Of a stretch of DNA of 64,000 nucleotides, positions 5,227-46,275 are shown piece by piece; the stretch's first letter is position 1, and every line of letters begins with the position of its first letter. Source of the DNA: Bacteroidia bacterium. GTDB taxonomy: Bacteria; Bacteroidota; Bacteroidia; NS11-12g; UBA9320. The notes under the pieces are model-generated. The model was not told the DNA's origin. It searched no databases and was given only the letters and a program-made list of their open reading frames with translations. The position numbers and the translations under genes were made by a program. The stretch is taken from the NCBI GenBank assembly GCA_018402155.1, contig JAGYJG010000001.1, forward strand, positions 1,942,501 through 2,006,500, in the 5' to 3' direction.

Positions 5227-5250
5227 TTGCGGAGAAAGGGATTAGGACCC
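5227..5250 (+). repeat. Duplicated tRNA-Ser 3'-end fragment (candidate att site)
   Basis: TTGCGGAGAAAGGGATT followed by AGGACCC matches the tRNA-Ser 3' end at 10668-10693 (TTGCGGAGAAAGAGGGATT then CGAACCC) in the same orientation, with a 2-base deletion and two substitutions. It stands 13 bp upstream of the OmpA-family gene start and has no tRNA body attached, as expected for the distal attachment-site copy of an integrated element. Confidence 0.55.
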
Positions 5251-5483
5251 AGCCTCCTATATACTTATTATCAGTTAATTATAACAATTAATTCGCCTAA
5301 GTCAACCCGCTAAACAACCCAATCGGCCGCGGAGGGCATTTCACCCAATTGTATGTCTCAGTGTTTGCAAATATAATTGTTTTGCCAAAAAGTTGATTCC
5401 TTAATTCCAGTTTTGAGAGCTACCCAGGTGGATAGCTCTCCAAGCAAGTGAGAGAAGCGGAGATTTATTCTTTCTTACTTGCA

Positions 5484-5616
5484 TATTACGGCGGCGGGCT
5501 TGGCGAAGGTGGCGATTTTTACCCCTGAACTAACTACGAAGAACTGAACTTCAAATTTAGCAATTAGCTGTCCTACGAAGCACAAAAACCCTGCTTGCGT
5601 ATAGGTGCTGTTGTAC
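5484..5616 (-). repeat. attC-like repeat copy A
   Basis: This ~133 bp sequence aligns end to end with copy B at 6161-6292. Shared blocks include AGGTGG.GATT.TTA, TGAACT, ATTTAGCA, GAAGCAC and CCCTGCTTGCGTATAGGTG. It lies directly 3' of the lipoprotein gene at 5625-6050 (8 bp away), the position of attC in an integron cassette. Its ends are imperfect inverted repeats. Just outside, on the OmpA side, are two further hairpins (5415-5440 and about 5442-5484). Whether it is recombinogenic is unknown. Confidence 0.55.
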
Positions 5617-5624
5617 GGTCGTTT

Positions 5625-6050
5625 TTATTCTTCTTTTTTCCAATCTTCAATAATTTTTACACTATCCTGATAAAACGTAAAGGTCAACCAGTTATCTAAA
5701 ACAGCACCTACAAATGACTTTTGAGTATTATTAATATCAAAATGAATTATACTATTTGCAGTGTCAAGTTCAAATGTGCCATTGATATCAGGTCCGTATT
5801 GTGCTTTTGTAAATTCTCCTTTTAAATCATCTAATTCACTATCTCCTATTAATTCGAGGGTTTCAAAATGAATTGACATATCAGTAATTCCGCCAATTGT
5901 CAATCCTTGGAGCCTCCATTTCCCGAGAATACCATGTTGTTCTAATCTGTCGGACGGATCAATTTTGTCATTTTCTTCGTCTTTTTCGCAGCTAGTGAAA
6001 ACTGTTATAATGGATAAAGTTAGTAAAAGTAAATATTTCAGTTTGCTCAT
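5625..6050 (-). CDS. Small lipoprotein, cassette-borne, function unknown
   Basis: This is a 141-residue protein with a lipoprotein signal (SIITVFTSC, Cys20) and an acidic linker (EKDEENDKIDPSD). The mature part has GILGKWRLQGLTIGG and a run of beta-strand-like segments, resembling lipocalin-like or META-type Bacteroidota lipoproteins in outline only. I do not recognise a family. It sits alone between two attC-like repeats and reads towards copy A, so it looks like a single-gene cassette. No terminator or promoter is evident. Confidence 0.65.
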   Translation of the reverse strand: MSKLKYLLLLTLSIITVFTSCEKDEENDKIDPSDRLEQHGILGKWRLQGLTIGGITDMSIHFETLELIGDSELDDLKGEFTKAQYGPDINGTFELDTANSIIHFDINNTQKSFVGAVLDNWLTFTFYQDSVKIIEDWKKEE

Positions 6051-6160
6051 TTGTCTTTATTAATAAAATCTAAAGCGAAGTTAATTTTGAATTTGTTAGG
6101 ACTTTGCACTTAGTGAATTATTTTTATGTTATTTTTTGCTGTCGGTTTTTTTAAATGCCC

Positions 6161-6292
6161 CATAACGTTTTGCAGCTACACGCAGGTGGGGATTCTTAGC
6201 ACTGAACTTCATTAAAAGTACTGAACTTGGATTTAGCACTTCACTTTCATAGAAGCACTGAACCCCCTGCTTGCGTATAGGTGATGTTATCG
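6161..6292 (-). repeat. attC-like repeat copy B
   Basis: Read on the minus strand it starts CGATAAC and ends GTTATGG, which pair as an imperfect inverted repeat, like the R''/R' ends of an attC site. The CGCAAGCAGGGGG and CCCCACCTGCGTG arms also pair in part. The interior holds a degenerate tandem of about 35 bp (TTAGCACT..GAAC twice). It is 66 bp past the stop of the AlbA-type gene at 6358 and upstream of the lipoprotein gene, matching cassette order. The strict attC consensus GTTRRRY is not met. Confidence 0.55.
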
Positions 6293-6357
6293 CTTCGGTG
6301 TTCTTCTCTGTCGATTTTCTTCATTATTTGTATTGTCTTATGAGCCAATTGAGCCAA

Positions 6358-7689
6358 TTATGAGCCAATCAAAACATAAGTTGTACCTGCCCCAACTTCT
6401 CCACTTCTGTCAAATACTTTGAACTTCTCAACAAGTTCAGTAAAATCTCTGGTGGCAGTTGCTTTTGAAACATCATTTAAAGTCTGATAATCACTATTAT
6501 TAATTTTTCCGTTTTCTTTTACGAAAAGCACAGCCTTGATCTGACGTTCATTAAGTCCAAGGTCTTTAAGTTGGTTGTGGTTATAAATGTCCTTTCTGAA
6601 CTCAACCCAAAAACCTGAACTTTTAAAAAAGAACATGGGTGCAGGAAGTCCAAAATTAAAGCACTGCTCTGTCATTTTTGAAATACCACGACCCCAAGAT
6701 TCAATATATCCGCTTCGAAAAAGTGCATTTGCAACGTCTGGATTAAATGGCTTAGAGGAGTGCTTGTCTAAAAGCGTTTCAATGGTCCAGTTTTCAGGAA
6801 GTTGCCCTTCATTCCAAATCATTATCTTGTCTTTGTAAACACTGATTTGAATAGGAACACCGCCCGAATAGTCTTTATGGGCAACCGCATTTAGTAATGC
6901 TTCCCTGATTGCTTCTTTTGGATACTCGTATGTTTCCACACGATTCAACCCTTCATAGCTTATCAAACCTTTGATATATTTTGTGAAAAGTAATTCTGTT
7001 GTCTTCTCAATTTGTTCAAAAAGATTTCCGTGAATTTCGTCTTGATATCTCAAGTCACTGTCACTTTCGAAAAAACCTATTTTTATGTAAGTGCCTGTTA
7101 TATACTTTTCTGGTTTAGGGTGAAAAAGTAGAATAGATGCCCTCTTAAGAAATTTTCCTTCTTTGAGTTGAAGGTTTTCAATAAGGTGTTCATTACTATC
7201 AGTTAAACTTCCTTCATCAATTCTTTGGCTTCTGAAAGCTCGTTTGCGGAAAAAATCAAATGTTTCTTGCTTAAAGTCATTTATTGAAACATTCGGAACA
7301 GGGACTCCATCCCATCTTTTCCCTTTTTTCTGAAGGAGAAACTTGTCAAGTGCTGCCCCCTTTAATTCCTGTTTGGTGCTGCCGCTTCTGTAATGATATT
7401 GCCCTTTGTAATTGACTGGATAAGGGTATTGCTCAACAAGAATTTCAATAAATTTCCCTTGGTCGGTTTGGTGCAGATTAACATCAACTAAAATCCCTAA
7501 AATGTCTCTGACCTTGTTAGGAATTTCTTCTAAAAGCTTTTTAGCATCCCTCAAGTCAACTACATTTCCTGAGTCGTCTTTCCCGATAAAAATAGTACCA
7601 CCATAAGCATTTGCAAAACCACAAATCCATTTCAAGTATTCGTCTCTCCAAGTTACTTTAAACTCAATATTTTGCGATTCTGATGCCAC
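6358..7689 (-). CDS. AlbA_2/Schlafen-type ATP-binding transcriptional regulator-like protein
   Basis: The N-terminal half is a Schlafen-AlbA_2 domain (ESQNIEFKVTW, then FANAYGGTIFIGKDDSGNVV). The middle is the associated GHKL-like ATP-binding segment (EAIREALLNAVAHKDYS, then IWNEGQLP and GYIESWGRGI). The C-terminus is a short winged-helix-like region. Such proteins are frequent in accessory DNA and are often near defence or regulatory genes; their molecular role is not settled. The frame is open up to 7824, but the first strong family residues follow a GTG at 7689, and a recombination-site-like sequence lies at 7761-7788, so I prefer the shorter start (443 residues). It is followed by attC-like copy B. 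Confidence 0.8.
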   Translation of the reverse strand: MASESQNIEFKVTWRDEYLKWICGFANAYGGTIFIGKDDSGNVVDLRDAKKLLEEIPNKVRDILGILVDVNLHQTDQGKFIEILVEQYPYPVNYKGQYHYRSGSTKQELKGAALDKFLLQKKGKRWDGVPVPNVSINDFKQETFDFFRKRAFRSQRIDEGSLTDSNEHLIENLQLKEGKFLKRASILLFHPKPEKYITGTYIKIGFFESDSDLRYQDEIHGNLFEQIEKTTELLFTKYIKGLISYEGLNRVETYEYPKEAIREALLNAVAHKDYSGGVPIQISVYKDKIMIWNEGQLPENWTIETLLDKHSSKPFNPDVANALFRSGYIESWGRGISKMTEQCFNFGLPAPMFFFKSSGFWVEFRKDIYNHNQLKDLGLNERQIKAVLFVKENGKINNSDYQTLNDVSKATATRDFTELVEKFKVFDRSGEVGAGTTYVLIGS

Positions 7690-7760
7690 TACAGATAATT
7701 TATAAGTTGCAAATTTACTCTTTTCTCTAATGTTATTTTGATGTTTGGGTTTTCTACACT

Positions 7761-7788
7761 GAGCGCTAACATCAGTATATGCCCAATA
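7761..7788 (-). repeat. Possible recombination-site end upstream of the first cassette gene
   Basis: On the minus strand this reads GGGCATATACTGATGTTAGC then GC. It resembles the plus-strand end of the attC-like repeats (TTGCGTATAGGTGATGTTAT then CGC), so it is one repeat end in the opposite orientation. It lies just upstream of the AlbA-type gene and just downstream of the recombinase remnant, where an attI-like or worn attC site would be expected. It is a single short match. Confidence 0.3.
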
Positions 7789-7919
7789 CATACCCCCTAT
7801 TGTGCATATTTCCACTATGTACACTATAGAAAACGTGTCTCATTAAAAAAGGTGTACGATGAAACATTGTGAACTGGTTATACGTATCATTTCTATTACC
7901 CTCCAAAATTAACTAAACC

Positions 7920-8160
7920 TTACAATAAATCTAAAGGACTTTTTATGGTTTTGTTAGAAATATTCATTACGTGGGTATATACCTCTGTTGTCTTACTGCT
8001 ACCATGACCGAGTGCACTATTTTGGATATTCCCTTAGGTTTCCCCGTACTTGCATTAGATGTGTAGCAAAAGAGTGCCTAAACGTGTGAGGCGTACTGCA
8101 GGGGTTAGAGTTGATTCTTTTACCAAAAGAATCAATTATATAGCACTTGCCATTTCTATC
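7920..8160 (-). pseudogene. Frameshifted C-terminal remnant of a tyrosine recombinase
   Basis: Translation of the minus strand gives STPHTFRHSFATHLMQVRG, NLR, then after one extra G near 8032 NIQNSALGHGSSKTTEVYTH, VMNISNKTIKSPLDLL and stop. This is the catalytic C-terminal end of a tyrosine recombinase: the HxxR box (HTFRH), the LGH box and the Tyr nucleophile (EVYTH). The terminal SPLD resembles Bacteroidota Xer-like integrases and also the end of integron integrases. The N-terminal two thirds are missing. It is therefore inactive, and marks the island as integrase-derived. Confidence 0.8.
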
Positions 8161-8181
8161 ATTAATATAGTATGACAAAAA

Positions 8182-8211
8182 AACCCTGAAAAATCTCTGA
8201 TTTTCAGGGTT
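8182..8211. terminator. Hairpin, possible terminator
   Basis: AACCCTGAAAAATC (8182-8195) pairs with GATTTTCAGGGTT (8199-8211) with one bulge and a 3-base loop. An A-run precedes it on the plus strand, so on the minus strand a T-run follows. It lies between the recombinase remnant and the tRNA-like fragment. Confidence 0.5.
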
Positions 8212-8234
8212 CTAATTAAAGGCCATAGCCTTTT

Positions 8235-8250
8235 ACGCGGAGAGAGAGGA
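8235..8250 (+). repeat. Third tRNA-3'-end-like fragment
   Basis: ACGCGGAGAGAGAGGA resembles the 3' end of the tRNA-Ser gene (TTGCGGAGAAAGAGGGA at 10668) in the same orientation. It has no tRNA body. It is short and could be chance, but its place beside the recombinase remnant fits an internal att site between two tandem elements. Confidence 0.3.
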
Positions 8251-8439
8251 AAATATACCTCAACTCCTAAACTTATATTTTTCTAGTGTTTTAAACTTGT
8301 TTTGCAGATTGGGTTACCAGTTAGCTACCCAGTGAGCAAAGATGGGGACTTAAACTCGTTTCGCTGTGATAAACAAACTTAGCAAAATTTAACGGAGATA
8401 TTCAAAATGAACCGTTTTTTTCGCACCTATTAAATACCA

Positions 8440-9480
8440 TTATTCCACAAAATATCCTGTTGATTTACCTTGTCCCTCTTTGGTGATAATTCCTTTTGAA
8501 ACCAATTCTCCCAAAGACTTTTTAACCGTTGGCAACGCCATATCAAGTTTTTTTGCTATCTCACTGGAGCTACATCCCGCGTGGTTTTGAATAAAAAACA
8601 AAATGCGTTTATCACGTTGTGAAATAGGCTTGACTGTTCTGCCTTCTTCCAATTTATTCATCAATTGCTCTTGAATGTTTATCATACAGCTGCTAAAAAA
8701 CGCCAGCCACTCCGTTACGTTTTCTCCTGGTCTATGACGCTGTGTTTGCATGAGAATCTTATAATACTCTGACTTCCTACTTTCAATCTCATGTTCAAAA
8801 CTGACGTATTGAATCCAAGAATACCCATTTTTTAATAACAACAAACTGCCAAGCAATCTACTTAATCTTCCATTGCCATCCTGAAAAGGGTGAATACTTA
8901 AAAACTCATACACAAACAAAGCTGCCTTTACAAAAGGAATTGTTTCCTTGTCGGTATTGTACCAATCAAACAACATCATCATCGCATCTTGAGTTGCCAA
9001 TCCTGGCTCCGTTGTTCTAAATACAATTTGTTTAGTTCCGTCAACCAAATTAGCCTCGACAGCATTACTAACTTGCTTGTAATCTCCTCTATGCCATGAA
9101 TCCTTTTCTCCATGTTGCATCAATATTTTATGCAGGTTTTTAATTTGGCTTTCTGAAATACCAATGGATTCATAGTTTTCAGTGATTGCATCCAATGCTT
9201 CGAAATAACCAATCACTTCTTGCTCATCCCTTTCTTCTAATTTTGAAATGGCCAATTTTTCAATCAACACCGCTACTTCATCATCGGTCATTTTAGAGCC
9301 TTCAATCCTGGTTGAAGCTCCTACACTTCTTACCGTAGCAATCGATTTCAGTTGCTTTAGCGATGCCCCTTCTCGCTTTTCTATGGAAGCCCATGAAGCA
9401 TCAAAACGATCTATTTTACTAAGCTCAGTCATGAGTTTCATGCCCAAGTCAAGCCTCAATGTATGTATTTTTATACTCAT
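8440..9480 (-). CDS. Fic family protein (class II, with N-terminal inhibitory motif and C-terminal winged helix)
   Basis: Fic enzymes transfer AMP or another nucleotide to target hydroxyls. The catalytic motif HPFQDGNGRLSR (about residues 197-208) is intact, including the His and the GNGR phosphate loop. An N-terminal STRIEG (about 56-61) fits the inhibitory helix (S/T)xxxE(G/N), whose Glu blocks ATP, so this is a class II auto-inhibited Fic needing no separate antitoxin. The last ~70 residues look like a winged-helix DNA-binding domain (SSSEIAKKLDMALPTVKKSLGELVSKG). The frame extends to 9534, but residues 1-18 of that version are encoded by a tandem repeat, so I start at ATG 9480 (346 residues). 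It sits in the tRNA-Ser island. Confidence 0.88.
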   Translation of the reverse strand: MSIKIHTLRLDLGMKLMTELSKIDRFDASWASIEKREGASLKQLKSIATVRSVGASTRIEGSKMTDDEVAVLIEKLAISKLEERDEQEVIGYFEALDAITENYESIGISESQIKNLHKILMQHGEKDSWHRGDYKQVSNAVEANLVDGTKQIVFRTTEPGLATQDAMMMLFDWYNTDKETIPFVKAALFVYEFLSIHPFQDGNGRLSRLLGSLLLLKNGYSWIQYVSFEHEIESRKSEYYKILMQTQRHRPGENVTEWLAFFSSCMINIQEQLMNKLEEGRTVKPISQRDKRILFFIQNHAGCSSSEIAKKLDMALPTVKKSLGELVSKGIITKEGQGKSTGYFVE

Positions 9481-9583
9481 AATATATCCGTATATATACG
9501 CAAATATACGCAAATAGATATGGTTCAAACTCATAATATATCCGTATTTATCCGAAAATATCCGAAAACAGATATGAAAACAA
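9476..9583 (-). repeat. Two 54 bp imperfect tandem repeats over the fic start
   Basis: Copy 1 (9476-9529) and copy 2 (9530-9583) both begin CTCATAATATATCCGTAT and share the whole length with scattered changes. Each holds iterated ATAtaCGcaa or ATATCCGAAA steps spaced about one helical turn apart. The array covers the fic start and upstream region, so it may be a multi-site operator, possibly for the winged-helix domain of the Fic protein itself. The regulatory role is inference. Confidence 0.6.
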
Positions 9584-9653
9584 TCATGAGAAGCAAAAAC
9601 GCTGAATTTGCCCTCTCACCGTTAGGCTCAAATTGATCTTGCACAAGGGAGGG

Positions 9654-9670
9654 GGTTCTGTCGCATTAAC
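9654..9670 (+). repeat. Candidate left inverted repeat of the IS6-family element
   Basis: GGTTCTGTCGCATTAAC resembles the usual IS6 terminal sequence GGYTCTGTTGCA. It lies 49 bp before the transposase start. I find no convincing matching right end after 10387, so the element may be truncated on that side. Confidence 0.45.
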
Positions 9671-9718
9671 TATTGCAATATAATACATATGTAGGTTTGC
9701 TATGTAAAAATCACCTTC

Positions 9719-10387
9719 ATGTTCAAACGTCACAGATATCCAAGAGCAATCATTCTTCAAGCAGTTTATTTCAAGTTGAGATTCACATTGAGTTATCGAG
9801 ATGTTGAAGAATTACTAAAAATTCGAGGTGTTAAAGTAGACCATTCCACTATTCAAAGGTGGGTGTTTAAGTTCAGCCCAATGATTGAGGCTACTATGCA
9901 CAAGAGGAAGAAACAGATATGTGATAGTTGGCGAATGGACGAAACCTACATCAAGGTCGGAGGTAAAGACAGATACTTATATCGAGCTGTAGACAAGCAA
10001 GGAAATACTGTAGACTTCCTACTAACTAAACGGAGAATGAAGGGATCAGCACAGAAGTTTCTAAACAAAGCCATAGGTAACAATGGAAAACCAAGACTGA
10101 TTAATATTGATAAAAGTGGATCAAATACTGAAGCCATCCGTATTATCAATAGACATAGTTTAACCTTCAAGAAGATAAAGACCAGGAGAGTCAAGTATCT
10201 AAATAACATAGTGGAGCAAGATCATCGGACGATCAAACGTCGAATAGCCATTACAACAGGATTCAAAGAATTTGAATCCGATCAGAGAACACTAGCAGGA
10301 ATAGAAATCATAAACATTATCAGAAAGGACCAACTTTCAAATTCAAAGAAAAGTTGGTTTGCTACTTTTAAGTCTTTAGCAGCTTAA
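9719..10387 (+). CDS. IS6-family transposase
   Basis: The 222-residue DDE transposase is of the IS6/IS26 type, close to full length. The N-terminal HTH region (LSYRDVEELLKIRGVKVDHSTIQRWV) is followed by catalytic residues Asp74 (WRMDETYIKV), Asp131 (INIDKSGSN) and Glu166 (NNIVEQDHR). The 34 residues between the second Asp and the Glu are the IS6 DD(34)E spacing. IS6 elements move by cointegration and leave direct copies. The reading frame is intact, so the protein may be active even though only the left terminal repeat is apparent. It lies between the fic gene and tRNA-Ser in the island. Confidence 0.9.
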   Translation: MFKRHRYPRAIILQAVYFKLRFTLSYRDVEELLKIRGVKVDHSTIQRWVFKFSPMIEATMHKRKKQICDSWRMDETYIKVGGKDRYLYRAVDKQGNTVDFLLTKRRMKGSAQKFLNKAIGNNGKPRLINIDKSGSNTEAIRIINRHSLTFKKIKTRRVKYLNNIVEQDHRTIKRRIAITTGFKEFESDQRTLAGIEIINIIRKDQLSNSKKSWFATFKSLAA

Positions 10388-10670
10388 GATAAGTTGAAAT
10401 CTGACTTAATGTTAATTAAGCCCTCCATTTCCATTACAAAGGTGGTAAACTTAGACCAAAAATGCTACTCGCAACTCACTGAACATCAGTACCATTATGT
10501 CCAATTTTGTCCCATTGCTGGGTTGCTTTTTTTGGCTTTCCAAAAAAGCAACCCGCTAAGCAACCCAAAGTGGGTGCAAAATGGGTTATTTTGGGACATC
10601 GTTTAGGGCAAAAAAAATGCCCAAAACGTTGGTTTTGAGCATTTTGGGACATTTTGGTACGTCCTACTTG
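10388..10670. other. Island end next to tRNA-Ser: hairpins and GCAACCC repeats, no gene
   Basis: A long hairpin occupies 10520-10554 (GGGTTGC plus T-run paired with A-run plus GCAACCC). A second GCAACCC follows at 10560-10566. The block CAACCCGCTAAGCAACCCAA (10549-10568) recurs with one mismatch at 5303-5322 near the other end of the island. Short repeats inside both ends suit integrase arm-binding sites. A GGGCA/TGCCC hairpin at about 10607-10624 lies closer to the tRNA. The 70-codon frame here is not credible as a gene. Confidence 0.45.
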
Positions 10671-10758
10671 CGGAGAAAGAGGGATTCGAACCCTCGGTAC
10701 ACTTGTGATGTACACACGCTTTCCAAGCGTGCTCCTTAAGCCACTCGGACACCTCTCC
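10671..10758 (-). tRNA. tRNA-Ser(GGA)
   Basis: Read on the minus strand it folds as a class II tRNA: acceptor GGAGAGG/TTTCTCC with discriminator G, D-arm with GAGTGGCTTAAGG, anticodon stem CACGC/GCGTG around TTGGAAA (anticodon GGA, reads UCC/UCU), an extended variable arm (TGTACATCACAAGTGTA), and T-arm GAGGGTTCGAATCCCTC. No CCA is encoded. It forms the right edge of the island. Confidence 0.96.
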
Positions 10759-11828: not shown

Positions 11829-14800
11829 TTATTTTGAAACGGTGATTCGCTTAGTAGCGTAGAAGTCTCCATTTCTAACTTGTACAAAGTAAATACCCTC
11901 AGCTACTGCTGACATATCTACACTGTAAGTTCCGTTGAAGTTATCTACCACTTTAGCAGAAATCACGTTACCCAATATATCGCCTACTTTTACAACCACG
12001 TCTCCTGCATTTTCTACATTTACTGTGAATTGTCCGTTTGATGGGTTAGGATATACATTGATCATTGAGTTGTTTTTGGTCAATTGGTCTACACCCAATA
12101 GGTCTATTGCAATTGTTTCGCAAGACTCACTCCAGCACTCTCCTTTTTGTGTAGCAAGACAAGCTTCAAAAGTTGCTTGATCCACGTTCACGTAGTTGTA
12201 TGTTGGATTAGCAGCTTGGTCTTTACCACCATCGCCAAATGTCCATCTGTATTTATCGTTTCCTGCAGGTCCTGTGAAGACAACTTCTCTACCATTTTTA
12301 ACAAATGTGTAAGCAGCAACTGGAGCTGGATTTACCGTTACAGGCTTAGTGATTTGATCACTGCAGCCACCATCTACGATTGCCTCCAGAGTTACGTTGT
12401 ATGTCTTTGGCTCGCTGTACATGTGTGTAGGGCTCAAATCTGCACTTACGCTTGTAGGTCCGTCTCCAAATGACCAGCTGTATGATAGGTTACCAGCAGC
12501 TACAGTAGATTTATTAGTAAATACTGCTTCGTTGCCTTCACATACTGTGCCAGCTTCAAAATCTGCAACAGCTTGTAGTACCACACTTATCTCCTTAGTT
12601 ATCGAGTTAGTACATCCATTTAAATCCGCTATAGTAAGAGTTACCTCTTTAGTTCCTACTTGGCTAAATAGGTAAGAAGGATTCTCTTGTCCTGACGCTG
12701 ATTCACCATTGAAATCCCATGCCCAAGTACTTTGTGCCACATTAGCAGTACCGGTTCTTGTGAATCGTATAGGTGTTAAGTTACACGCTCTATCAAATGT
12801 AAAGTCTGCTTCTGGTGAAGGATTTAATGTAATGTTTTTTGATATGGCATCGGCACAACCAAACTCAGAAGTAGCTGTTAACGTTACAGACTTAGTACCT
12901 GCTGTTGCAAATGCAAATTTTGGTGCACCTGCTCTAGAGATTCCCTCTCCGTTAAAGTCCCACGCAAAACCCATACCTGCTCCGTTAGGAATAGTAGACT
13001 CATTCCTGAATACTACATCTACAAAATTACACTCACCTTCACTTGAGAAATCAGCTACTGGTTTCTCAAATTGGTACGCATTTTTAGTCAAAGAAGCATC
13101 ACATCCATTGGCAGTAGCCGTTACAGATATTTGGCGCTGACCTGGAGTAGAAAATGTATACGATGGAGTAGCACCTGTTGCACTATACTCGCCACCAAAA
13201 TCCCATGCATATGTGATAGGATCTGTAGTAGGCAACGTAGTGTTGTTTACTATAGTTATTGCAACACCTTCGCAAGCGTTTAAAACTTTAAAATCTATAT
13301 CTGGTTTTGGTGTTACATTAATAGTGTTGGTAGCTGTGTACTCAAATTTAGGGTACAAGCCATTAGCAACAGTCATTTCTACAGCTACATTATTTCCGTA
13401 GGTAGAATATTCCCAGAAACCATCTTTAATGTCTGAGTTATCATTGGTAATTGAAGGATCTGGATCTGCAAACTCCCACTTAGTTACAATATAGCTAGTG
13501 CCACCCAATGTAGATGTGTTTTTAAATTGAGCAACGTTGCCTAAGCAAATATCTGATGCTTCAAAAGATGCTACAGGAGTATGTGGTACATATACATATC
13601 TACCAAATGCAGTATCGCAACCAGTAGTATTGTCAAGTACTTCTATTTCTACAAAGATGGTTTTACCTGCAAGAGATACAGCAGGATCCATAGAAACTAC
13701 AGTATCAGCGTTGGTTAGTGAAAAACCGCTGCTAGTTACATCTACCATATCGTTGTCTGTAGCAGTAAGCGTGTAAGTGTAGTTTGTAGCTAGTGCTGGG
13801 TCAGCTATGGTATACTCAGATACGTAAGTATTTACTGTAGCATCTGGATCGCCCATGGTTCCTGCATTAAAATATCCGTCAAAAAGAGCTCCTTGAGATA
13901 ATGAACCTCCTGTCGGTGATTTAACTATATCAAAGCTGTAGTCATCAGAATTGTTAGTTAAGATATCATCATTACCATCTAAGTATGCCTTTACTAGGTT
14001 TGTTCCTGGTTTATTGAAAACTGGCTCCGCATCAAATACATAACTTGATGAAGCTCCTGCCGCAACACTTGCAGTAATTACTTCACTTATCTTTCCAGAA
14101 CCATTGATATCATAAGCTACAGGAACATTTGACACAGCAAAAGCACTTTCATTTTTTACTGTGATCCCTACAGAAGTAGAAAAATTACCACACTCAGAAG
14201 CGTTTGTTGTGATATCTATAGAAGTTACAGAGAAATCTAAATCATACTCTGTTGCTCCAAGGTCTGGAGTCGTTGTACTTCTAGTTACTCCATTTACATC
14301 TGTAGTAACTCCAGCATATGGTTTAGCTAAGTTACCAATACCAAATGAAGTCATTCTATAATCTTGAGTTGATCTATCTACATACGCTACACTTTCATTT
14401 AACCAGTCAGTACCAAAGCCTGAAGACATATCATCAAATGACTCATAAAGAGCATTGTGATACGCGTGATTAACTATTCCAGAACCAGTAATGTCATCTA
14501 AATACATATTGTTGTTATCCCAATCATTTACTCCAATACCTGCAGCATCAAAGCCATAAATACCATAAAAGGTACCCGCAGTCTTATTTACATTTGAGTA
14601 GATGACATTATTCTGGACAAGCCCTTCTATATAGCCTGTGTACATAGCATATATAGTACTTGTACTATTTTGATTAGGATTTTTAATGATATTAACGGTG
14701 TTGTTAATCACATCATGACCTGTAGCAAACGGAGCATACACATACATACCATAAGTAAATCCTGCACCATTTAAATCAATAATATTATTAGCGATAATTG

Positions 14801-31682: not shown

Positions 31683-33050
31683 CTACCTTCTGCGAGGGCT
31701 GCTGCTCGGCGCAGAGGACCGTGAAGGACTGTTGCTCCGAGAAGGGCTTGCACTTCTACTTGGTGTACTACTACGAGATGGAGTATAACTTCTACTAGGC
31801 GTGGTGCTTCGGCTCGGGCTCACACTTCTACTTGGTGTACTACTACGAGAAGGAGTATAACTTCTGCTAGGCGTGGTACTTCGGCTCGGGCTCACACTTC
31901 TACTTGGTGTACTACTACGAGAAGGAGTATAACTTCTGCTAGGCGTGGTACTTCGGCTCGGGCTCACACTTCTACTTGGTGAAGAAGAACTAGGCGTCCT
32001 GCGTCGTAAATTTCCTACCTCATTAGTATTCGGAACCCCGTCTGTAACTGTATTTCCGTTTAACGTGCCGCTATTTCGAGTGCTCGTTCCTGTAGGCCTG
32101 GTATCTAAAACTGGTCTTCTAGATTGAGAATTATCCAATCTATCATCTCCTGCATTTCCTCCATAAACTTCGCTAGAATTTACACCTCTATTAATGGTGG
32201 GTGCGGTAGTTCGTTGGCCAGAAGGGCGACGTGTATTAACAGTTCCTCCATCATTATTTATTGAGTTAGATCCTATACCCTGTCGTGGGCTATTAGCTGC
32301 CCGGTTATAGCGTGTACTTCTTTGGGAGGGTACTCCGCTGCTAGTGTTAACGTCACTATTATTGGCAGTTCTAAAAGTTCTGTTTCCATACCATCCATTG
32401 TTGAATCCATTTCCCCATTGGTTTCCGTTATTCCACCCGTTATTCCATCCGCCATAGAAGTAGTTTGGTGTAGGGCAATTATTCCACCCGTTATTAAACC
32501 CACGCCCCCAGGAGTTGCCGTACCAACCTTGTGCATAAGGATTTCCCCAAGCGCCCCAACCTGGATTGCCCCAAGCATTTCCGCCGTACCATCCGTTCCA
32601 ATTATTGTAGCCAAGGTGCCAACCACCTCGTGGTCTAGCCCAAAAGCTATTGCCATACCACATAGTATTCCATCCATTGTTCCACGAACTATTAAGCCGA
32701 TTGTCTCTATTGGCATCGCGGAAGCCTTCTACATAGCCTCTTTCGTAGCTGTACTCAAACTCTTCTCCACGCAGTCGGCGTATTCTTCGTTCGTAGTCCA
32801 CATCTCCCAGAGCATAATCTTCTGTAGGTATAGCTTCATCATTGTACACAGGAGCTACCTGCTGTTGTGCGCGAGGCACAGGCGTTTGTGGTGTATAATT
32901 TTGAGGAGTTGATTGGGGCATTTTTTGTACGACTACCATATCATCAGCCGGCGTGTAATATACATCATCGGCAAAGTTGGTCGTAAACCTGCTAGATGTG
33001 CAACTTGCTAAGAATAAGGTGGCGAGAGCGAGATAGGTGGTTAATTTCAT
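31683..33050 (-). CDS. Lipoprotein with Asn/Gly/Trp-rich core and Ser-Arg-Pro tandem-repeat tail
   Basis: The 455-residue protein starts at ATG 33050, giving the lipoprotein signal TLFLASC. The middle (about 120-230) is dominated by N, G, W and Y (NNGWNNGWN-type steps). The C-terminal ~110 residues repeat the 24-residue unit PSRSVSPSRSTTPSRSYTPS plus RSST three times, then degrade and end RRR. The tail is very basic and probably disordered. I do not recognise a family. It is the first gene of a unit reading into the FadL-like gene and divergent from proS. Confidence 0.65.
   Translation of the reverse strand: MKLTTYLALATLFLASCTSSRFTTNFADDVYYTPADDMVVVQKMPQSTPQNYTPQTPVPRAQQQVAPVYNDEAIPTEDYALGDVDYERRIRRLRGEEFEYSYERGYVEGFRDANRDNRLNSSWNNGWNTMWYGNSFWARPRGGWHLGYNNWNGWYGGNAWGNPGWGAWGNPYAQGWYGNSWGRGFNNGWNNCPTPNYFYGGWNNGWNNGNQWGNGFNNGWYGNRTFRTANNSDVNTSSGVPSQRSTRYNRAANSPRQGIGSNSINNDGGTVNTRRPSGQRTTAPTINRGVNSSEVYGGNAGDDRLDNSQSRRPVLDTRPTGTSTRNSGTLNGNTVTDGVPNTNEVGNLRRRTPSSSSPSRSVSPSRSTTPSRSYTPSRSSTPSRSVSPSRSTTPSRSYTPSRSSTPSRSVSPSRSTTPSRSYTPSRSSTPSRSASPSRSNSPSRSSAPSSSPRRR
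31752..31982 (-). repeat. 72 bp in-frame tandem repeats
   Basis: Units begin at 31752, 31824 and 31896, with a partial fourth from 31968. They encode the Ser-Arg-Pro tail of the lipoprotein. Units two and three are nearly identical; unit one carries a few changes. The repeat length is a multiple of three, so copy-number change would alter length without a frameshift. Confidence 0.9.
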
Positions 33051-37681: not shown

Positions 37682-39028
37682 ATGGAGTCATTTGAAGAAT
37701 TAAATATAAATCGCCAACTGCTTAACGCCATTGCTGATTTAGGTTTTGAAAAACCAACACCCATACAAGAAGAAGCCTTTCCTGTGGCTATGTCTGGCAA
37801 AAATATAGTAGGAATAGCACAAACAGGTACAGGAAAAACCTTAGCCTACATGTTGCCCATACTGCAGCAGCTAAACTATTCCAAAGATTATAAACCACGT
37901 GTGATAATACTAGTCCCTACCCGCGAGCTTGTGGTACAAGTGGTGGAGCACATAGAACATTTTACTAAGTATATGAGCACCAGAGTACTGGGGGTATACG
38001 GCGGGGTCAATATAAAAACACAAATGGGCCAACTAACCGAAGGGCAAGATATAGTAGTAGGTACGCCAGGCAGATTGTATGATCTAGCAGCCAATCGCTC
38101 CCTGTTGCTACAAGAAGTAAAGAAGCTAGTGATAGACGAGGTAGACGTCATGCTGGACCTCGGTTTTCGTTTTCAGTTGAATAATATTTTTGAGCTTTTG
38201 CCCGAAAAACGCCAAAACATCATGTTTTCAGCTACTATGACCGAAGACGTAGAAATACTCATCAATGAAAATTTCATAGCTCCAGAATACATTGCCATAG
38301 CACTAAGTGGAACGCCGCTAGACAATATAAGCCAATCCTGCTATGCAGTGGCCAACTTCTATACCAAGGTAAACCTACTAAGCCACCTACTAAAAGATAA
38401 AGAAACGTATGCAAAAGTTCTTATTTTTATAGACAGCAAAAAAAATGCAGATCGATTATTTGAAGCGATGGAGCAAGAGTTTTGGAGCGACTTACTGATA
38501 ATACACTCCAACAAAAGTCAAAATAATAGACTAGCAGCTATAGAACGTTTTAATGATAACAATGCGCGCATACTGATAGCCACAGATGTAATAGCTCGCG
38601 GTCTAGACCTCGATAACATATCCCATGTTATAAATTTTGATACCCCAAAATTTGCAGAAAACTATATGCACCGGATAGGCAGAACTGGAAGAGCCGAAAA
38701 AGTAGGGCATTCCATTTTGTTTTATACAGAAGATGAAGCCAAGTATAAAGATGCAATAGAAAAACTAATGGAGTATACTATACCGCATACTCCGTGGCCA
38801 CAAGAGGTAAAAATAAGCAAGCAACTAACACTGGATGAGCAGCCACGCGTAATAGAAAAAAATCCACATAAAAAGCGCAAGTACGAGTCTGGAGCTAGTT
38901 TTCATGAAAAAAAGGATAAAAATAAGAAGACGACTAACGTAGGCGGCGGACAAAAAATAAAATTAAAAAAAGCAAAAAAATACAAAAGCCCAATCACCAG
39001 AGGGTCTAAACCACAGGGTAAGAAATAA
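37682..39028 (+). CDS. DEAD-family ATP-dependent RNA helicase (DEVD variant)
   Basis: The 448-residue helicase has the Q-motif (GFEKPTPIQ), Walker A AQTGTGKT, PTRELV, TPGRL, SAT, ATDVIARGLDLD and HRIGRTGR. The Walker B box reads VIDEVD rather than DEAD; the two acidic residues for ATP hydrolysis are kept. The C-terminal ~70 residues are Lys-rich (KKKDKNKKTTN, KIKLKKAKKYK), as in other Bacteroidota RNA helicases that bind RNA through a basic tail. Probable roles are ribosome assembly or RNA turnover. Confidence 0.93.
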   Translation: MESFEELNINRQLLNAIADLGFEKPTPIQEEAFPVAMSGKNIVGIAQTGTGKTLAYMLPILQQLNYSKDYKPRVIILVPTRELVVQVVEHIEHFTKYMSTRVLGVYGGVNIKTQMGQLTEGQDIVVGTPGRLYDLAANRSLLLQEVKKLVIDEVDVMLDLGFRFQLNNIFELLPEKRQNIMFSATMTEDVEILINENFIAPEYIAIALSGTPLDNISQSCYAVANFYTKVNLLSHLLKDKETYAKVLIFIDSKKNADRLFEAMEQEFWSDLLIIHSNKSQNNRLAAIERFNDNNARILIATDVIARGLDLDNISHVINFDTPKFAENYMHRIGRTGRAEKVGHSILFYTEDEAKYKDAIEKLMEYTIPHTPWPQEVKISKQLTLDEQPRVIEKNPHKKRKYESGASFHEKKDKNKKTTNVGGGQKIKLKKAKKYKSPITRGSKPQGKK

Positions 39029-39339
39029 TACGGTAAGCTGGCAAGCCGAGCTATTTATTCTAAAAATGCCTACAAACTCATAAAAAAAATTTATTCTACT
39101 TTTGAGAACTAAAGATGATTTCGTATTCACTTTGGGGCTGTATATTTATGAAAATAATCATTTGTTGATAGTGAGTCTAAATGCACTAAAAATGAATCAC
39201 ATCTACTGCGCTTCAAAAACACTTAAAGCCAATAAACTTACACTTATTTGATATACGACACACTTATTTATTTTAAATCCTAAATATTTAAATAAATTTG
39301 AACTATTGATATTGTCATTAAATCCTTAGTTTAAATCAA
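39029..39339. other. AT-rich intergenic region
   Basis: The 311 bp between the helicase and the first FISUMP-type gene contain no convincing gene, terminator or -7 box. They presumably hold the promoter for the gene at 39340. Confidence 0.4.
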
Positions 39340-40257
39340 ATGCGTACTAAAAACACACTTATCGCCATCGCAGCATTTTTTGCTACCACCGCAGCCTACG
39401 CTCAAGTAGGCATAGGCACCACCACCCCAAATTCTTCTGCAGCTCTAGACATTACCTCTACTACCAAAGGATTACTTCCGCCCCGCATGACCGCAGCTCA
39501 AAGAAACGCTATTGCCACTCCAGCCCAAGGACTAATAATCTATTGTACCAATTGCGGTGCAAATGGTGAGGCACAGTTGTATAACGGAACTGCATGGGTA
39601 AATTTGGTAGGCGGGACAGCTACTTGGGGATGCGGAGATAGTGAAACATTTACATACAACGGTTCTAGTGTTACCTACGGCACGGTGATAGGTGCCAATT
39701 CCAAATGTTGGTTAGACCGTAATTTGGGTGCTACACAAGTAGCAACAAGCAGTTCTCATTCTGCTTCTTACGGTGACTTATTTCAGTGGGGCAGAGGGAC
39801 AGATGGACATCAAAGTAGAACGTCTTCTACAACCACTACCTTAAGTACGACAGACCAACCAGGTCACGATGATTTTATTGTAAATACAAATTTTTCGCCT
39901 TACGATTGGCGCAACCCACAAAACACTAATTTGTGGCAGGGTGTAAATGGAACAAACAACCCCTGTCCTAGTGGATATCGTTTGCCTACCGAAACAGAAT
40001 GGAACACAGAACGCACAAGTTGGAGCACTAGCGATACAGCAGGCGCTTTCGCCTCTCCGCTCAAGTTAACGGTGACCGGTAACCGCAATCATAATAACGG
40101 CAATTTGATGCAAACCGGTGTGGCAGGCTTTTATTGGAGTTCTTCAATTAGTGGCACGGTATCGCGTGCACTTAATATACAGCCAAGTTCTAGTAATACT
40201 ACTATTAATGATCAAAGACGTGCCTCCGGCTTTTCTGTGCGTTGCATAAAGGACTAG
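39340..40257 (+). CDS. FISUMP-domain surface protein 1
   Basis: The 305-residue secreted protein (signal about 1-21) begins its mature part with VGIGTTTPNSSAALDITSTT and PPRMTAAQRNAIATP, a head shared by the other members of this cluster. The C-terminal part (about 95-305) is a Fibrobacter-major-paralogue (FISUMP)-like domain: WLDRNLGATQV, CPSGYRLPTETEW, GFYWSSS and the closing GFSVRCIKD. These C-type-lectin-like folds are usually surface-exposed. The shared 65 bp block at 39541-39605 also occurs in the gene at 48051. Confidence 0.8.
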   Translation: MRTKNTLIAIAAFFATTAAYAQVGIGTTTPNSSAALDITSTTKGLLPPRMTAAQRNAIATPAQGLIIYCTNCGANGEAQLYNGTAWVNLVGGTATWGCGDSETFTYNGSSVTYGTVIGANSKCWLDRNLGATQVATSSSHSASYGDLFQWGRGTDGHQSRTSSTTTTLSTTDQPGHDDFIVNTNFSPYDWRNPQNTNLWQGVNGTNNPCPSGYRLPTETEWNTERTSWSTSDTAGAFASPLKLTVTGNRNHNNGNLMQTGVAGFYWSSSISGTVSRALNIQPSSSNTTINDQRRASGFSVRCIKD

Positions 40258-40641
40258 TGCTGATTGCTGCGGTGCTTTGAGCATGTCAAAGTATTGATTC
40301 CGGAGTTTTATTTACCAAGTGGAGCAAGGTGAAAACCTCTGCGAAACAGATTTTAGTGGGTAAACTCAATAGTTGAACTCCTTGTACTGCCATTCGATAA
40401 ATCATAATCTGACAGTCAATGAGGTAAACAGAGCTGACATGCGTTCTTTGCACTTCTTATTTATATTTAGTCGCCCTAAATCCTCTGAACCAAATGAAAC
40501 ACCATTTGAGTAAATTCAACTTACACATGTAGTATCTGCAATGCGTGTGTGGTTGACGGCTTAAACTCCTTTTGCAGATGCATCAAAACAGATATTAAAG
40601 CAGTCGTTAAAATTCAGTTTTTATGCAAATAGTGTGCAAAT
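40258..40641. other. Gene-free region before tRNA-Val
   Basis: No coding frame, repeat or clear promoter is visible here. The only recognisable element nearby is the terminator at its right edge. Confidence 0.4.
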
Positions 40642-40669
40642 AAAAAAAGTCCCACCGAAGTGAGACTTT
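40642..40669 (-). terminator. Terminator downstream of tRNA-Val
   Basis: AAAGTCCCAC pairs with GTGAGACTTT (one mismatch) around CGAA; on the minus strand a T-run follows. It lies 21 bp beyond the tRNA 3' end. Confidence 0.8.
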
Positions 40670-40689
40670 ATAATTGATTGATAATCAAG

Positions 40690-40764
40690 TGGGAACTGCT
40701 GGATTCGAACCAGCGACCCTCTGCTTGTAAGGCAGATGCTCTAAACCAACTGAGCTAAGCTCCC
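40690..40764 (-). tRNA. tRNA-Val(TAC)
   Basis: On the minus strand the acceptor stem is GGGAGCT/AGTTCCC with discriminator A. The D-arm is GCTCAGTTGGTTTAGAGC, the anticodon stem TCTGC/GCAGA encloses CTTACAA (anticodon TAC), and the T-arm is CTGGTTCGAATCCAG. No CCA is encoded. Confidence 0.96.
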
Positions 40765-41082
40765 TTCCAAAAGGGCTGCAAATATACTAGGTGTTTTAAA
40801 AAAACAAAATAAAATATAGCTCACTACTCTTTTTTTGATCATACTTTGGTTGTACTACGATAGTATTATCAGCATAGCACGACTTTGGAAATCGGTTTAG
40901 CTTACTTTGCGCCTACAAAAGCTAAGTTTATGGGATTCTAACCGCGCTAATCTGCAGAAGATCTATACGCAAAACCGAGCAATAAAGTACTGAAAGCTTA
41001 CACACAATAATACTAGGAAAGTTTAAAATAAATAACACCTTGGTAATGGGATATAACACCGTAAGTTTGCATACGACAACTT
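40765..41082. other. Intergenic region upstream of the LytTR gene
   Basis: There is no credible gene in 318 bp. A TTACTTTG near 40910 resembles a -7 box but is more than 150 bp from the LytTR start, so I do not assign it. Confidence 0.35.
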
Positions 41083-41865
41083 GTGAAAAAGTACAGCACT
41101 CTAATTTTAGACAATCAAGAAGAAAACATTGTGCTCACGGAGCTGATGCTTCGAGAGTATTGCAAAAGTATAGGAGACATTTATACTGCAACCACTCTAA
41201 AGCAGAGCGAAGCCATTTGTCTAAAACATGCACCTGACATTTTATTTTTAAATTTAAATTTAGACAAAGGGAAAATCGGGTTTCAGCTAATAAAAAATTT
41301 ACCCGCTACTATAGGTGAAGTTATTTTCATAGCGTCGCATGATGATTGCGCACTAGAGGCAATAGCCTGCAACGCATCATCGTATTTACTCAAACCATTT
41401 AGTGCTTCTACTTTTGTAAAAGCTGTAAATAAAGCCATAGCAAGCACCTCGACTAAACGCGAAATGGTACGTTTGGTAGAAATGCAAAAAAAACCTGAAC
41501 CAAAAAATAACAAAGTAGTTGCCATTGCCGCATTAGATAATGTGTACTTGGTAGATGTTGACGATATACTATATTGTGAGGCACAAGGTGGATATACGCG
41601 AGTTCATCTCAAAAACCACAAGGAATATATCTCATCCAGAAGCATTAGCGATTATGAGTCGATACTCGACAAAAGTTGTTTTTTTAGGATACACCATAAA
41701 TACCTGGTAAATATTAATCATATCGATACTATTGATAAAAAAAATGGATACAGCTGTATATTAAAAAATCACCAAAAACTGCCAGTAGCTGCAAGACGGC
41801 AAGAAAATTTCAATCGTTTTCTTCAGTTAAAAACCTCCCAAACTCCTAAACTCTTAACCTTCTAA
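41083..41865 (+). CDS. LytTR-family regulator with a degenerate receiver domain
   Basis: The 260-residue protein has a CheY-like N-terminal domain and a LytTR DNA-binding domain (about 148-250: VYLVDVDDILYCEAQGGYTR, FFRIHHKYLVNINHI). In the receiver, the position of the phospho-acceptor Asp reads Asn57 (DILFLNLNL), while the conserved Lys (YLLKPF) remains. It may therefore act without phosphorylation. The start is GTG at 41083. It stands alone upstream of the FISUMP cluster and could control it, but there is no direct evidence. Confidence 0.85.
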   Translation: MKKYSTLILDNQEENIVLTELMLREYCKSIGDIYTATTLKQSEAICLKHAPDILFLNLNLDKGKIGFQLIKNLPATIGEVIFIASHDDCALEAIACNASSYLLKPFSASTFVKAVNKAIASTSTKREMVRLVEMQKKPEPKNNKVVAIAALDNVYLVDVDDILYCEAQGGYTRVHLKNHKEYISSRSISDYESILDKSCFFRIHHKYLVNINHIDTIDKKNGYSCILKNHQKLPVAARRQENFNRFLQLKTSQTPKLLTF

Positions 41866-41935
41866 ACTCTTAAGCTCATAAACTTTCAACTTCAAACTAT
41901 AAACTTCAAACTTCTAAACTTACTAGCTCTTAACA
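41826..41935. repeat. Pyrimidine-rich heptad-like repeat
   Basis: Steps of CTTCTAAACT, CTCTTAA and AACTTTCAACTTC repeat imperfectly across the end of the LytTR gene and beyond. It is the reverse-complement type of the purine-rich repeats at 44036, 45176 and 46203, so arrays of both orientations bracket the cluster. Confidence 0.6.
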
Positions 41936-42095
41936 TAGAAAAAACTGCCCTAAAAAACGCAAGTGGCACACCAAAGTACTTAATATCTACCCCTCTATAA
42001 AAACACTTATAGAGTATATAGATGCCGAAAACTTCACTCCAGACCCAAGCAAAGAAAAAGGATTCTTTGACAAAATGAAGGAATTTTTTAACTAA
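41934..42095 (+). pseudogene. C-terminal fragment of an unrecognised gene
   Basis: An open frame without a start codon reads HRKNCPKKRKWHTKVLNI, YPSIKTLIEYIDAENFTPDP, SKEKGFFDKMKEFFN and stops at 42093-42095. The composition (acidic turn then amphipathic KEFF end) looks like a genuine protein C-terminus. A stop codon and repeat lie just upstream, so only a fragment remains. I do not recognise the family. Confidence 0.4.
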
Positions 42096-42460
42096 TACCT
42101 TACAATTCCTATATCAATTTGCATCTGAGATAGTGCTCCTCTTTGGGGCGAAACTACACTCGCAATGAGAAATATTATCGCTGCAATTTGCACTATAACA
42201 GCATAGTACACGCAAAACACTTCTAACCTCTTATTAACCTACAATTTATTTAGGTATGAGCAAATTAAACGATGAAACATAATATGTTGATAGATAGATA
42301 CATAAATATATAAATAAATAAAATTGCAATTTTTTTGTTACTAACAATATTTTTTGCCCATTTTCGTATCGTTGTTTTTAGAGAAATTCTTAGATTTTTG
42401 AGTAAATTGAAAAACTAATTTTCAGAACCCACCTAGAAATCACCACTCAAAAATATCGAA
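42096..42460. other. AT-rich leader region of the next T9SS gene
   Basis: No gene is visible in 365 bp. It is strongly AT-rich near 42290-42420 and presumably holds the promoter of the gene at 42461. Confidence 0.35.
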
Positions 42461-43471
42461 ATGAACACAAAAAACAAAATTATCGCTACACTGCTCTTTT
42501 TTCTATCTATCAACCTAAGCCAGGCGCAAGACATCAAAGTAACCTCAGGTACGGCGTTTCATATTTCCAGTGGAGTTGTCTTCCATGTGAATGGACTCAC
42601 GCTCACGCCTTCAGCAACGTTTGATTTAAACGGCCTGAGTATAACCAAGGCGTCTTCAACTACAACGGCAACTTCCACTGGAAACGACTATTTAACAAGA
42701 ATTTACGAATTAAGCCATGCTGGCACGTACCCCACTTTTACGGGGGCCTTAAGAGTAGATTACCTGCAATCAGAACTACCTGCGAGTTTAGTAACTAACG
42801 AAAATTTATTAGAGGTAAACTACTACGACGGTACTGCTTGGAATCAAGTTAGTACGGCTAGCAGGGATGTAAGCACTAACTATGTAATCTCTGGTGCGCT
42901 CACCAGTCAAACCTTAAGAGAAATTACCTTAGCATCTAGCTCTGCAGCATTACCCGTTACTTGGCTAAACTTCACGGCAACTAAGCAAGACAAAGCCGTG
43001 CTACTCAACTGGAGCACTGCACAAGAGCTCAATACCCTAGACTTTGTAGTACAGCACAGTACAGATGCTAAGAACTTTACCAACGTAGCTAGCCAACCAG
43101 CAGCTGGCAACAGTAATGTTATTCAAAACTACTACTACGTGCATACCTCACCTGTAACGGGGTACAACTATTACCGCTTGCACCAACGCGATTTTGACGG
43201 GGAGAGCTCGTACAGCGAGATACGTTCTGTTAAGCTAAACACTGCATTGAATACAAACGACGTACGCGTACTAGGAAACCCATTGCAAACCAATGAACTT
43301 ACACTGGTAACGCCAATAGAGCAAGAGATTGCACTATATGACATGGTTGGTAAATTATGCCTAAAACAGCAGCTTGAGGCAGGTAGCCACACGCTAGATG
43401 TTAGCTTTTTACCTAAAGGAATGTACTTAGTACAAACCGCTACCTCTAGCCAAAAGATAATTAAACTGTAA
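42461..43471 (+). CDS. Secreted T9SS-sorted protein
   Basis: The 336-residue protein has a signal peptide (about 1-22, SQAQ). A beta-rich N-terminal part (IKVTSGTAFHISSGVVFHVN) is followed by the Bacteroidota linker module ALPVTWLNFTATKQDKAVLL, NWSTAQELNTLDFVVQHS and YYRLHQRDFDGESSYSEIR. The sequence closes with a T9SS type A sorting domain (VRVLGNPLQTNELTLV to the KIIKL end). The function is unknown; it is exported to the surface or medium. It opens the run of secreted genes at 42.4-46.2 kb. Confidence 0.8.
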   Translation: MNTKNKIIATLLFFLSINLSQAQDIKVTSGTAFHISSGVVFHVNGLTLTPSATFDLNGLSITKASSTTTATSTGNDYLTRIYELSHAGTYPTFTGALRVDYLQSELPASLVTNENLLEVNYYDGTAWNQVSTASRDVSTNYVISGALTSQTLREITLASSSAALPVTWLNFTATKQDKAVLLNWSTAQELNTLDFVVQHSTDAKNFTNVASQPAAGNSNVIQNYYYVHTSPVTGYNYYRLHQRDFDGESSYSEIRSVKLNTALNTNDVRVLGNPLQTNELTLVTPIEQEIALYDMVGKLCLKQQLEAGSHTLDVSFLPKGMYLVQTATSSQKIIKL

Positions 43472-43533
43472 TCTAACCAACGTTAGCAATCAGTTCACCA
43501 GAAATCATAACTCATAAAAAATAACAAATCACT

Positions 43534-44031
43534 ATGAAACACTACCTAGTTACACTTACTCTACTACTTGCAGCCACTGTAACCCAAGCGCAAGTGGGCA
43601 TAGGCACTACCAGTCCAAACACTACTGCAGTTTTAGACATTACCGCAAGCGCCAAGGGATTAATCGTACCCAGAATGACAACAGTACAACGCGATGCCAG
43701 TATTTTATCGCCAACTGCAGGTTTACTTATTTACAATACTACTACCAATGCGCTAGAAATAGTTAATGGCAGTTCACTATGGGTTAATCTAACAACAGGA
43801 ACAACCACATCGGTAGCTCCAGGACCTACCAGCTCAATAGGCCTAATAGGAATAGGAACTGATGCTCCAAACGCCAATGCCGTTTTGGATGTAACTTCTA
43901 CCACAAAAGGCGTTTTGCTGCCCAGACATACTGCCGACCCTACGGGCGTAGCAGGTATGGTCTATTACAATACTACCGATCACGAGGTAAGAATGTATAA
44001 CGGTTCCGCTTGGATTACATTAACGAATTGA
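43534..44031 (+). CDS. Short secreted protein with duplicated VGIGT..PN head module
   Basis: The 165-residue protein has a signal peptide (TQAQ about 17-20), then two copies of the head module: VGIGTTSPNTTAVLDITASA and IGIGTDAPNANAVLDVTSTT, each followed by a 'GL..PR' and 'YNTT' strand. Unlike its neighbours it has no FISUMP domain, so it is just the head repeated twice. The module resembles the trimeric tail-fibre/collar-like repeats seen in Bacteroidota surface proteins. Its role is unknown. Confidence 0.65.
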   Translation: MKHYLVTLTLLLAATVTQAQVGIGTTSPNTTAVLDITASAKGLIVPRMTTVQRDASILSPTAGLLIYNTTTNALEIVNGSSLWVNLTTGTTTSVAPGPTSSIGLIGIGTDAPNANAVLDVTSTTKGVLLPRHTADPTGVAGMVYYNTTDHEVRMYNGSAWITLTN

Positions 44032-44035
44032 TAAA

Positions 44036-44094
44036 GTTTAGAGTTGAAAGTTTAAAGTGGAAAGTTTAGAGTGGAAAGAAGAAAGTTTAATAAC
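44036..44094. repeat. Purine-rich GTTTAGAGTTGAAA-type repeat
   Basis: Imperfect units of GAAAGTTTAGAGT(T/G) repeat directly upstream of the FISUMP gene at 44095 and end GAAGAAAGTTTAATAAC. The same ending precedes the gene at 45239. Confidence 0.65.
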
Positions 44095-45174: not shown

Positions 45175-45175
45175 A

Positions 45176-45238
45176 TACAGTTTAAAGTGGAACGTTTAGA
45201 GTTGAAAGAAGAAAGTTGAAAGAAGAAAGTTTAATAAT
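45176..45238. repeat. Purine-rich intergenic repeat
   Basis: It has the same type as at 44036: AGTTTAAAGTGGAACGTTTA then GAGTTGAAAGAAGAAAG repeated, reaching the start of the next gene. Confidence 0.6.
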
Positions 45239-46201: not shown

Positions 46202-46202
46202 A

Positions 46203-46275
46203 TACAGTTGAAAGTTTAGAGTTTAGAGCGGAAAGTTTAGAGTGGGAAGTTTAGAGTTTAGAGCGGGAAGTGTAT
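46203..46275. repeat. Purine-rich intergenic repeat after the third FISUMP gene
   Basis: Units GAAAGTTTAGAGT and GAGCGGGAAGT alternate imperfectly. It closes the tandem pair on the right. Confidence 0.55.

Follow-up and report, generated by a model that had tools for sequence, protein, structure and literature searches.

The window locus and its islands

The window, i.e., the whole stretch of 64,000 nt of Bacteroidia DNA analysed here, carries on its minus strand the following order of elements: integrase remnant, GTT triplet (7770–7768), SLFN/AlbA_2 gene, site B, lipoprotein-like gene, site A (Table 1). The original prediction had called this an integron-like mini-array, perhaps with a site type specific to Bacteroidota, a guess that proved largely right. 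The recombinase remnant that it placed upstream is real: it matches positions 259–314 of the IntI profile TIGR02249 in two pieces and is 86% identical over 361 nt (blastn) to the intact integrase region of a second locus in the same genome, L024. The gene-then-site order holds at both sites, as R'' of site B lies about 70 nt beyond the stop of the SLFN/AlbA-type gene (6358) and R'' of site A 13 nt beyond that of the lipoprotein-like gene (5625).

Table 1. Coordinates of the features at the window locus.
Feature	Position	Strand	Remarks
tRNA-Ser (gga), insertion target	10670–10758	-	3' end is the third copy of the 13-mer
Inner boundary repeat, copy of tRNA-Ser 3' end	8237–8249	+	divides the integron island (5229–8236) from the second island
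Integrase gene remnant, catalytic C-terminal part HTFRHSFATHL...SPLDLL	7920–8236 (about)	-	stop 7920–7922; 5' side truncated
attI-like region	7768–7919	-	likeness to two intact integron loci stops exactly at GTT 7768–7770
Cassette 1, crossover to crossover	6164–7770	-	SLFN/AlbA_2 + HATPase_c_4 gene (Pfam), ORF stop 6358
attC-like site B	6164–6288	-	R'' AAC 6286–6288, R' GTT 6164–6166; R'' extends to about 6298
Cassette 2, with 141-aa lipoprotein-like gene (5625–6050)	5487–6165	-	start not paired with site A
attC-like site A, hybrid or decayed	5487–5612	-	R' is GTA; 3' arm from another subtype
Outer boundary repeat, copy of tRNA-Ser 3' end	5229–5241	+	13-mer match

The two predicted repeats are both present. 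Copies A and B are 76% identical over 110 nt (blastn, E = 3e-13), and a newly built covariance model, trained on copy B and its relatives without copy A, fits each of the two across its full 124 positions, site B with 92 bits and site A with 43 bits (E = 2.6e-7). Copy A is only partly alike, however, with a different 3' arm, GTA in place of GTT at R', and no fold into paired arms. In folding against shuffled sequence, site B forms paired arms on the plus strand only, which is the bottom strand for these genes, with a z of −0.1, i.e., not above shuffles; site A gave no paired-arm fold and did worse than shuffles. The intact copy of the site at L024 reaches a z of −3.5.

The listed start of the 488-aa open reading frame, 7824, falls outside cassette 1, so the real start must lie downstream of 7768. 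Cassette 2 is probably composite or decayed, because its start fails to pair with site A. The truncated integrase, the GTA instead of GTT at site A, and the failure of own pairing in cassette 2 mark the window copy as a decaying two-cassette remnant of an integron-like system. Cassette 1 could be moved at most in trans, by the genome's two intact integrases.

The setting of this remnant is a tRNA gene. In congeners, an ompA-like gene, tRNA-Ser, and tatD are found, with about 130–145 bp between the two protein genes; in the window, the interval between the ompA-like gene and tatD is 5.5 kb. The 13-mer at the tRNA-Ser 3' end occurs three times in the window, at 5229, 8237, and 10670, versus 0.07 copies expected, which indicates two tandem islands, the first of which carries the mini-integron. 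The second (8237–10670) holds a Fic gene (SoFic by PADLOC) and a transposase-like gene, and a 54-bp tandem repeat rich in ATATATCCGTAT, possibly an operator, lies upstream of the Fic gene at 9470–9576. Elsewhere in the window, direct repeats with a 36-bp period (31725–31981) and copies of 120–300 bp spaced about 1.0–1.1 kb and 4–9 kb apart (39380–48330) are probably repeated protein domains.

Intact counterparts and the recombinase

It had been predicted that no intact integrase was present. This is true of the window, which has the truncated end alone, but not of the genome: two intact tyrosine recombinases of 372 aa, 97% identical, are encoded elsewhere on the same chromosome (loci L024 and L025). 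Each heads a series of same-strand genes that bear sites at their 3' ends. L024, L025, and the window are alike through the end of the integrase gene and 148 nt beyond, up to ...ATATACTGAT and the GTT that directly follows, and then diverge. On this alignment, we identify the junction of ATATACTGAT and GTT as the attI position. The arrangement of integrase gene, adjacent attI, and cassette array is intact at L024, at L025, and at 24 loci of integrase relatives, mostly from Bacteroidota, where an attI with a paired first cassette lies 34–446 nt after int.

The genome has five close copies of the site by blastn, two in the window and three further, and the model gives 19 sites at E ≤ 1, of which 17 are below 1e-4. 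Model matches outside the three integrase loci (G000 C1 931401–963925, 1418835, 1828942, and 8447; C5 3589) may be more arrays or solo sites. Cassettes of 2–6 kb share a leader of about 235 bp and the signal-peptide start of the first gene, at about 86–97% identity (L024 12186–12436 and 18585–18831; L025 8776–9023, 11815–12091, and 18322–18597), perhaps a shared promoter. Two stretches of cassette genes at L024 (7413–8471 and 10132–12069) match defence-candidate families (PDC-S02/YhcG nuclease; GmrSD, HEC-06).

By Pfam, the recombinase consists of a plain phage integrase domain, a SAM-like domain, and about 95 extra N-terminal residues. The catalytic residues are conserved. Every NCBIfam score lies under its cut-off, and the XerA and IntI profiles score nearly equally, as follows: XerA 198.6 bits (cut-off 220), TIGR02249 187.2 (265), XerD 170 (329.6), and XerC 164.7 (335). 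The K motif and HxLRH are 64–65 residues apart, versus about 71 in the XerD-like protein of the same genome and 106 in IntI1. In a structure search, XerA (5hxy) and the solved integron integrase 2a3v came nearest to an AlphaFold model of a Flavobacterium relative (L067, mean pLDDT 81). When the recombinase is aligned to 2a3v, residues 187–243 of the latter are skipped. That is, the IntI-specific region around patch III and the I2 helix is absent from the recombinases beside arrays. On these comparisons, the enzyme is Xer-like and lacks the region of about 40 residues that holds the I2 helix in IntI.

Profiles and folds place the recombinase closest to XerA and XerCD, which act on double-stranded dif sites and have no cassette arrays. 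A rival reading is a module of the pdif type, moved by the host's XerC and XerD on double-stranded dif-like sites. In its favour, the recombinase is closest to archaeal XerA by both profile (below cut-off) and structure search, and pdif modules also carry resistance genes (PMC7530245). We consider it very improbable. The sites are 45–125 nt long with two-armed stems, versus 28 bp for dif; an XerC-like and an XerD-like protein are encoded separately in the genome; and every array has its own recombinase and attI.

Site structure, cassette pairing, and strand

The original prediction noted that the sites depart from the strict attC consensus, and this is so across the set: the classical R boxes, GTTRRRY and RYYYAAC, are found in 2 of 52 sites. 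Rfam gave no match. The proposal that the sites are attC variants moved by IntI in trans, i.e., that this is a classical integron, draws on the tolerance of IntI1, which accepts very diverse attC. In addition, attC2 of Polaribacter phage P12002L recombined with attI1 through IntI1, on the bottom strand only (PMC9892861); that phage (L244) carries model matches at 39123–39244, 14503–14624, and 38036–38089, which are not equated with the paper's attC2. Against this proposal, no IntI above the TIGR02249 cut-off is encoded in the genome, the array-adjacent recombinases are without the IntI-specific region, the R-box consensus is as rare as just described, and the model found nothing in a class 1 integron locus. 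Hence, we hold a classical integron to be improbable, if somewhat less so than a pdif module.

In the sites described here, the R box is 9–12 bp of free sequence, and its partner is found at the other end of the cassette. To measure this, sites were called by stem alone, and each R'' was then compared with the start of its own cassette, agreement being scored at 6 or more of 7 variable bases. Among the relatives, over the first ~13 bases of the cassette, own-cassette agreement was found in 39 of 79 consecutive pairs, compared with a mean of 1.6 and a maximum of 6 on random re-pairing. Own pairing was seen in 35/68 cases downstream of int, in 2/36 upstream, and in 0/13 in shuffled sequence, and some array sites have no matching start. 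In the window, the cassette 1 start, GTTAGCGCTC, is identical to the R'' complement, GTTATCGCTT, at five of the seven variable bases.

In 51 of 52 validated, oriented sites, the start has A at its eleventh base (position 10, counting from 0) where the R'' complement has G or T, a conserved mismatch beyond which pairing resumes; this position was not used for selection. Because complementary stems served to call the sites in the first place, the stem statistics are partly circular, unlike the R-box and junction tests.

As a separate matter, the original prediction had noted the inverted ends of copy B, CGATAAC..GTTATGG. These are rejected as the functional pair, because the R'' and the adjacent start agree in 3 of 117 cases; the true partner of R'' is the start of its own cassette, which for copy B lies beside attI.

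The same pairing bears on whether the sites are recombination sites at all. A dispersed intergenic repeat, REP or terminator-like, could be moved by homologous recombination, which is possible between copies because the 130-bp subtype is 78–95% identical across species; site A, moreover, resembles a hybrid. Yet the junctions lie exactly at GTT, the start and R'' of one cassette covary though they differ between cassettes, and the sites cluster beside one recombinase family. Unless it has another cause, own-cassette pairing refutes a dispersed repeat, to which we give as slight a chance as to a pdif module.

On the bottom strand of the intact copies, paired R and L arms with covariation are present, as the original prediction proposed to check: the alignment fold gives an L-stem with compensatory changes in 11 of 12 pairs. 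RNAalifold on the top strand gives the R box only. This difference pointed to a polarity of mismatches, A.C on the top strand and G.T on the bottom. Constant A.C mismatches are seen in the sites, and among the non-Watson–Crick positions of the top strand A.C occurs 176 times versus 26 for G.T. Since an A.C mismatch of the top strand turns into a G.T wobble on the other, the arm hairpins have the higher predicted stability on the bottom strand in 51 of 52 sites, by a median of 5 kcal/mol. The imperfect two-armed R/L hairpin, with its bottom-strand-favouring asymmetry, is weakly present in window copy B and absent from copy A. We suggest that A.C/G.T polarity marks the strand, the role that extrahelical bases play in classical attC.

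The proposed mechanism is as follows. A Xer-like tyrosine recombinase would recognise attI beside its own gene and the folded, single-stranded, attC-like hairpins at cassette ends. Cassettes would form circles and enter at the GTT triplet, each thus carrying its own R'' at its end and its own R' at its start. The bottom strand would be the substrate, marked by its G.T wobbles at positions where the top strand has A.C mismatches. This scheme builds on the attI and site positions, the own-cassette pairing, the exact GTT junctions, and the strand asymmetry of stability, all read directly from the sequences; within it, the recombinase would be the catalyst and single-stranded DNA the substrate. 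We estimate at about 0.88 the probability that the window is a decayed mini-array of an unrecognised, integron-like lineage working in this manner. Such a system would function like an integron, yet its recombinase falls outside the IntI family, and the sites, by their consensus, do not qualify as attC.

Distribution and cassette traffic

The model has matches in 179 of 395 Bacteroidota genomes at E ≤ 1e-6, a figure without a matched outgroup, and the 130-bp subtype is found in 48 of the 395 species. Viral contigs had been meant as the negative control but bore phage arrays; instead, 20 loci were used, 19 from other phyla with homologous recombinases and the class 1 integron locus, and none had a model match. 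Many IMG/VR contigs with a recombinase relative (276 and 286 aa on the two contigs inspected) carry up to 15 sites beside it. In contigs L147–L226 (e.g., L158 2300–8770, L205, and L220), arrays of 5–15 small cassettes lie beside an I2-less recombinase, with genes against site polarity; these genes point towards the integrase, and the site often supplies their stop codon. Own-cassette pairing on phage contigs is 123/183, versus 8 permuted. Phage RNA-ligase and tail-fibre genes were found on the one contig whose flanking genes had matches. Phage integrons, that is, cassette arrays in phage genomes, have been described, but were found with classical IntI and attC models (PMC9892861).

That the repeat flanks different genes elsewhere, another point the original prediction had raised, is seen among resistance genes. 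One erm(F)-adjacent site is common to six plasmids, from Riemerella, Salmonella, Myroides, Sphingobacterium, Bacteroides, and Flagellimonas, and beyond its GTT the plasmids differ, continuing with estT, tet(X2), aadS, a dihydrofolate-reductase-family gene, or the ere(D) cassette. Conversely, four different left flanks, one of them the attI-like end of the xerD gene of Acinetobacter, precede tet(X2/X3), whose start is GTTATGTGCCATTTTTG; estT begins exactly at GTT behind three, and ere(D) behind two. Thus, with exact GTT starts behind two to four different sites, these cassettes have been shuffled. Within this system, tet(X), estT, ere(D), and aadS act like gene cassettes (L030 6001–8159; L032, L035, and L036), and gene direction and site polarity are opposed in the ere(D) and erm(F) cassettes. 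The Riemerella plasmid NZ_CP072192.1 (L032) bears a multi-resistance array in which OXA, MarR, ere(D), erm(F), estT, and catB genes are accompanied by at least seven site matches.

The Acinetobacter gene belongs to the ISCR2-xerD-tet(X)-res module, so far described as ISCR2-borne (PMC7530245). Its xerD groups with the array-heading integrases in a quick tree with long branches, from which no placement of IntI is taken, and tet(X3) starts at GTT after xerD; this xerD looks like a truncated integrase with its attI. In Riemerella anatipestifer, aph(3')-IVb, with flanks of 27 bp 5' and 140 bp 3', was shown by experiment to insert independently of homology, and the same uptake, of a gene with an attC-like 3' flank of about 140 bp, is described for lnu(H) and blaRATA. 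An attC-like fold was proposed and the mechanism left open, the paper naming no recombinase, attI, or site family (PMC13148043).

With class 1 and chromosomal IntI integrons, the system shares an attI beside a tyrosine recombinase gene, arrays of gene plus site, the GTT junction, two-armed folded sites, and bottom-strand bias. It differs in its recombinase and R boxes, in its proposed A.C/G.T strand mark, and in that int is, in bacteria, co-directional with and upstream of the array. Integron finders require the IntI-specific domain and a classical attC model (PMC9668308, PMC9024848), and the lineage should therefore be largely invisible to them; IntegronFinder work reported, for Bacteroidetes, In0 elements and a single complete integron, that of Salinibacter (PMC9024848). 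No description of the lineage was found in the literature searched, preprints and most subscription papers being outside its scope.

In the accepted account, it was the acquisition of the I2 helix that enabled integrases to recombine single strands, although its authors note that direct proof is lacking, since deletion of I2 kills IntI1 (PMC7790495). We think it fairly probable, if less so than the reading of the window itself, that Bacteroidota and their phages have a second integron lineage, one in which folded bottom-strand hairpins are recombined by an enzyme that was without an I2 helix from the outset. A natural system without I2 makes the acquisition account testable. If the proposal is true, I2 is not required for single-strand cassette recombination, and the lineage either converged on the IntI integrons or is their ancestor; the tet(X), estT, and aadS cassettes would originally have been carried by it. 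The system also offers a mechanism by which tet(X), estT, ere(D), aadS, and erm(F)-linked genes move between Bacteroidota, and it may explain the homology-free gene uptake of Riemerella.
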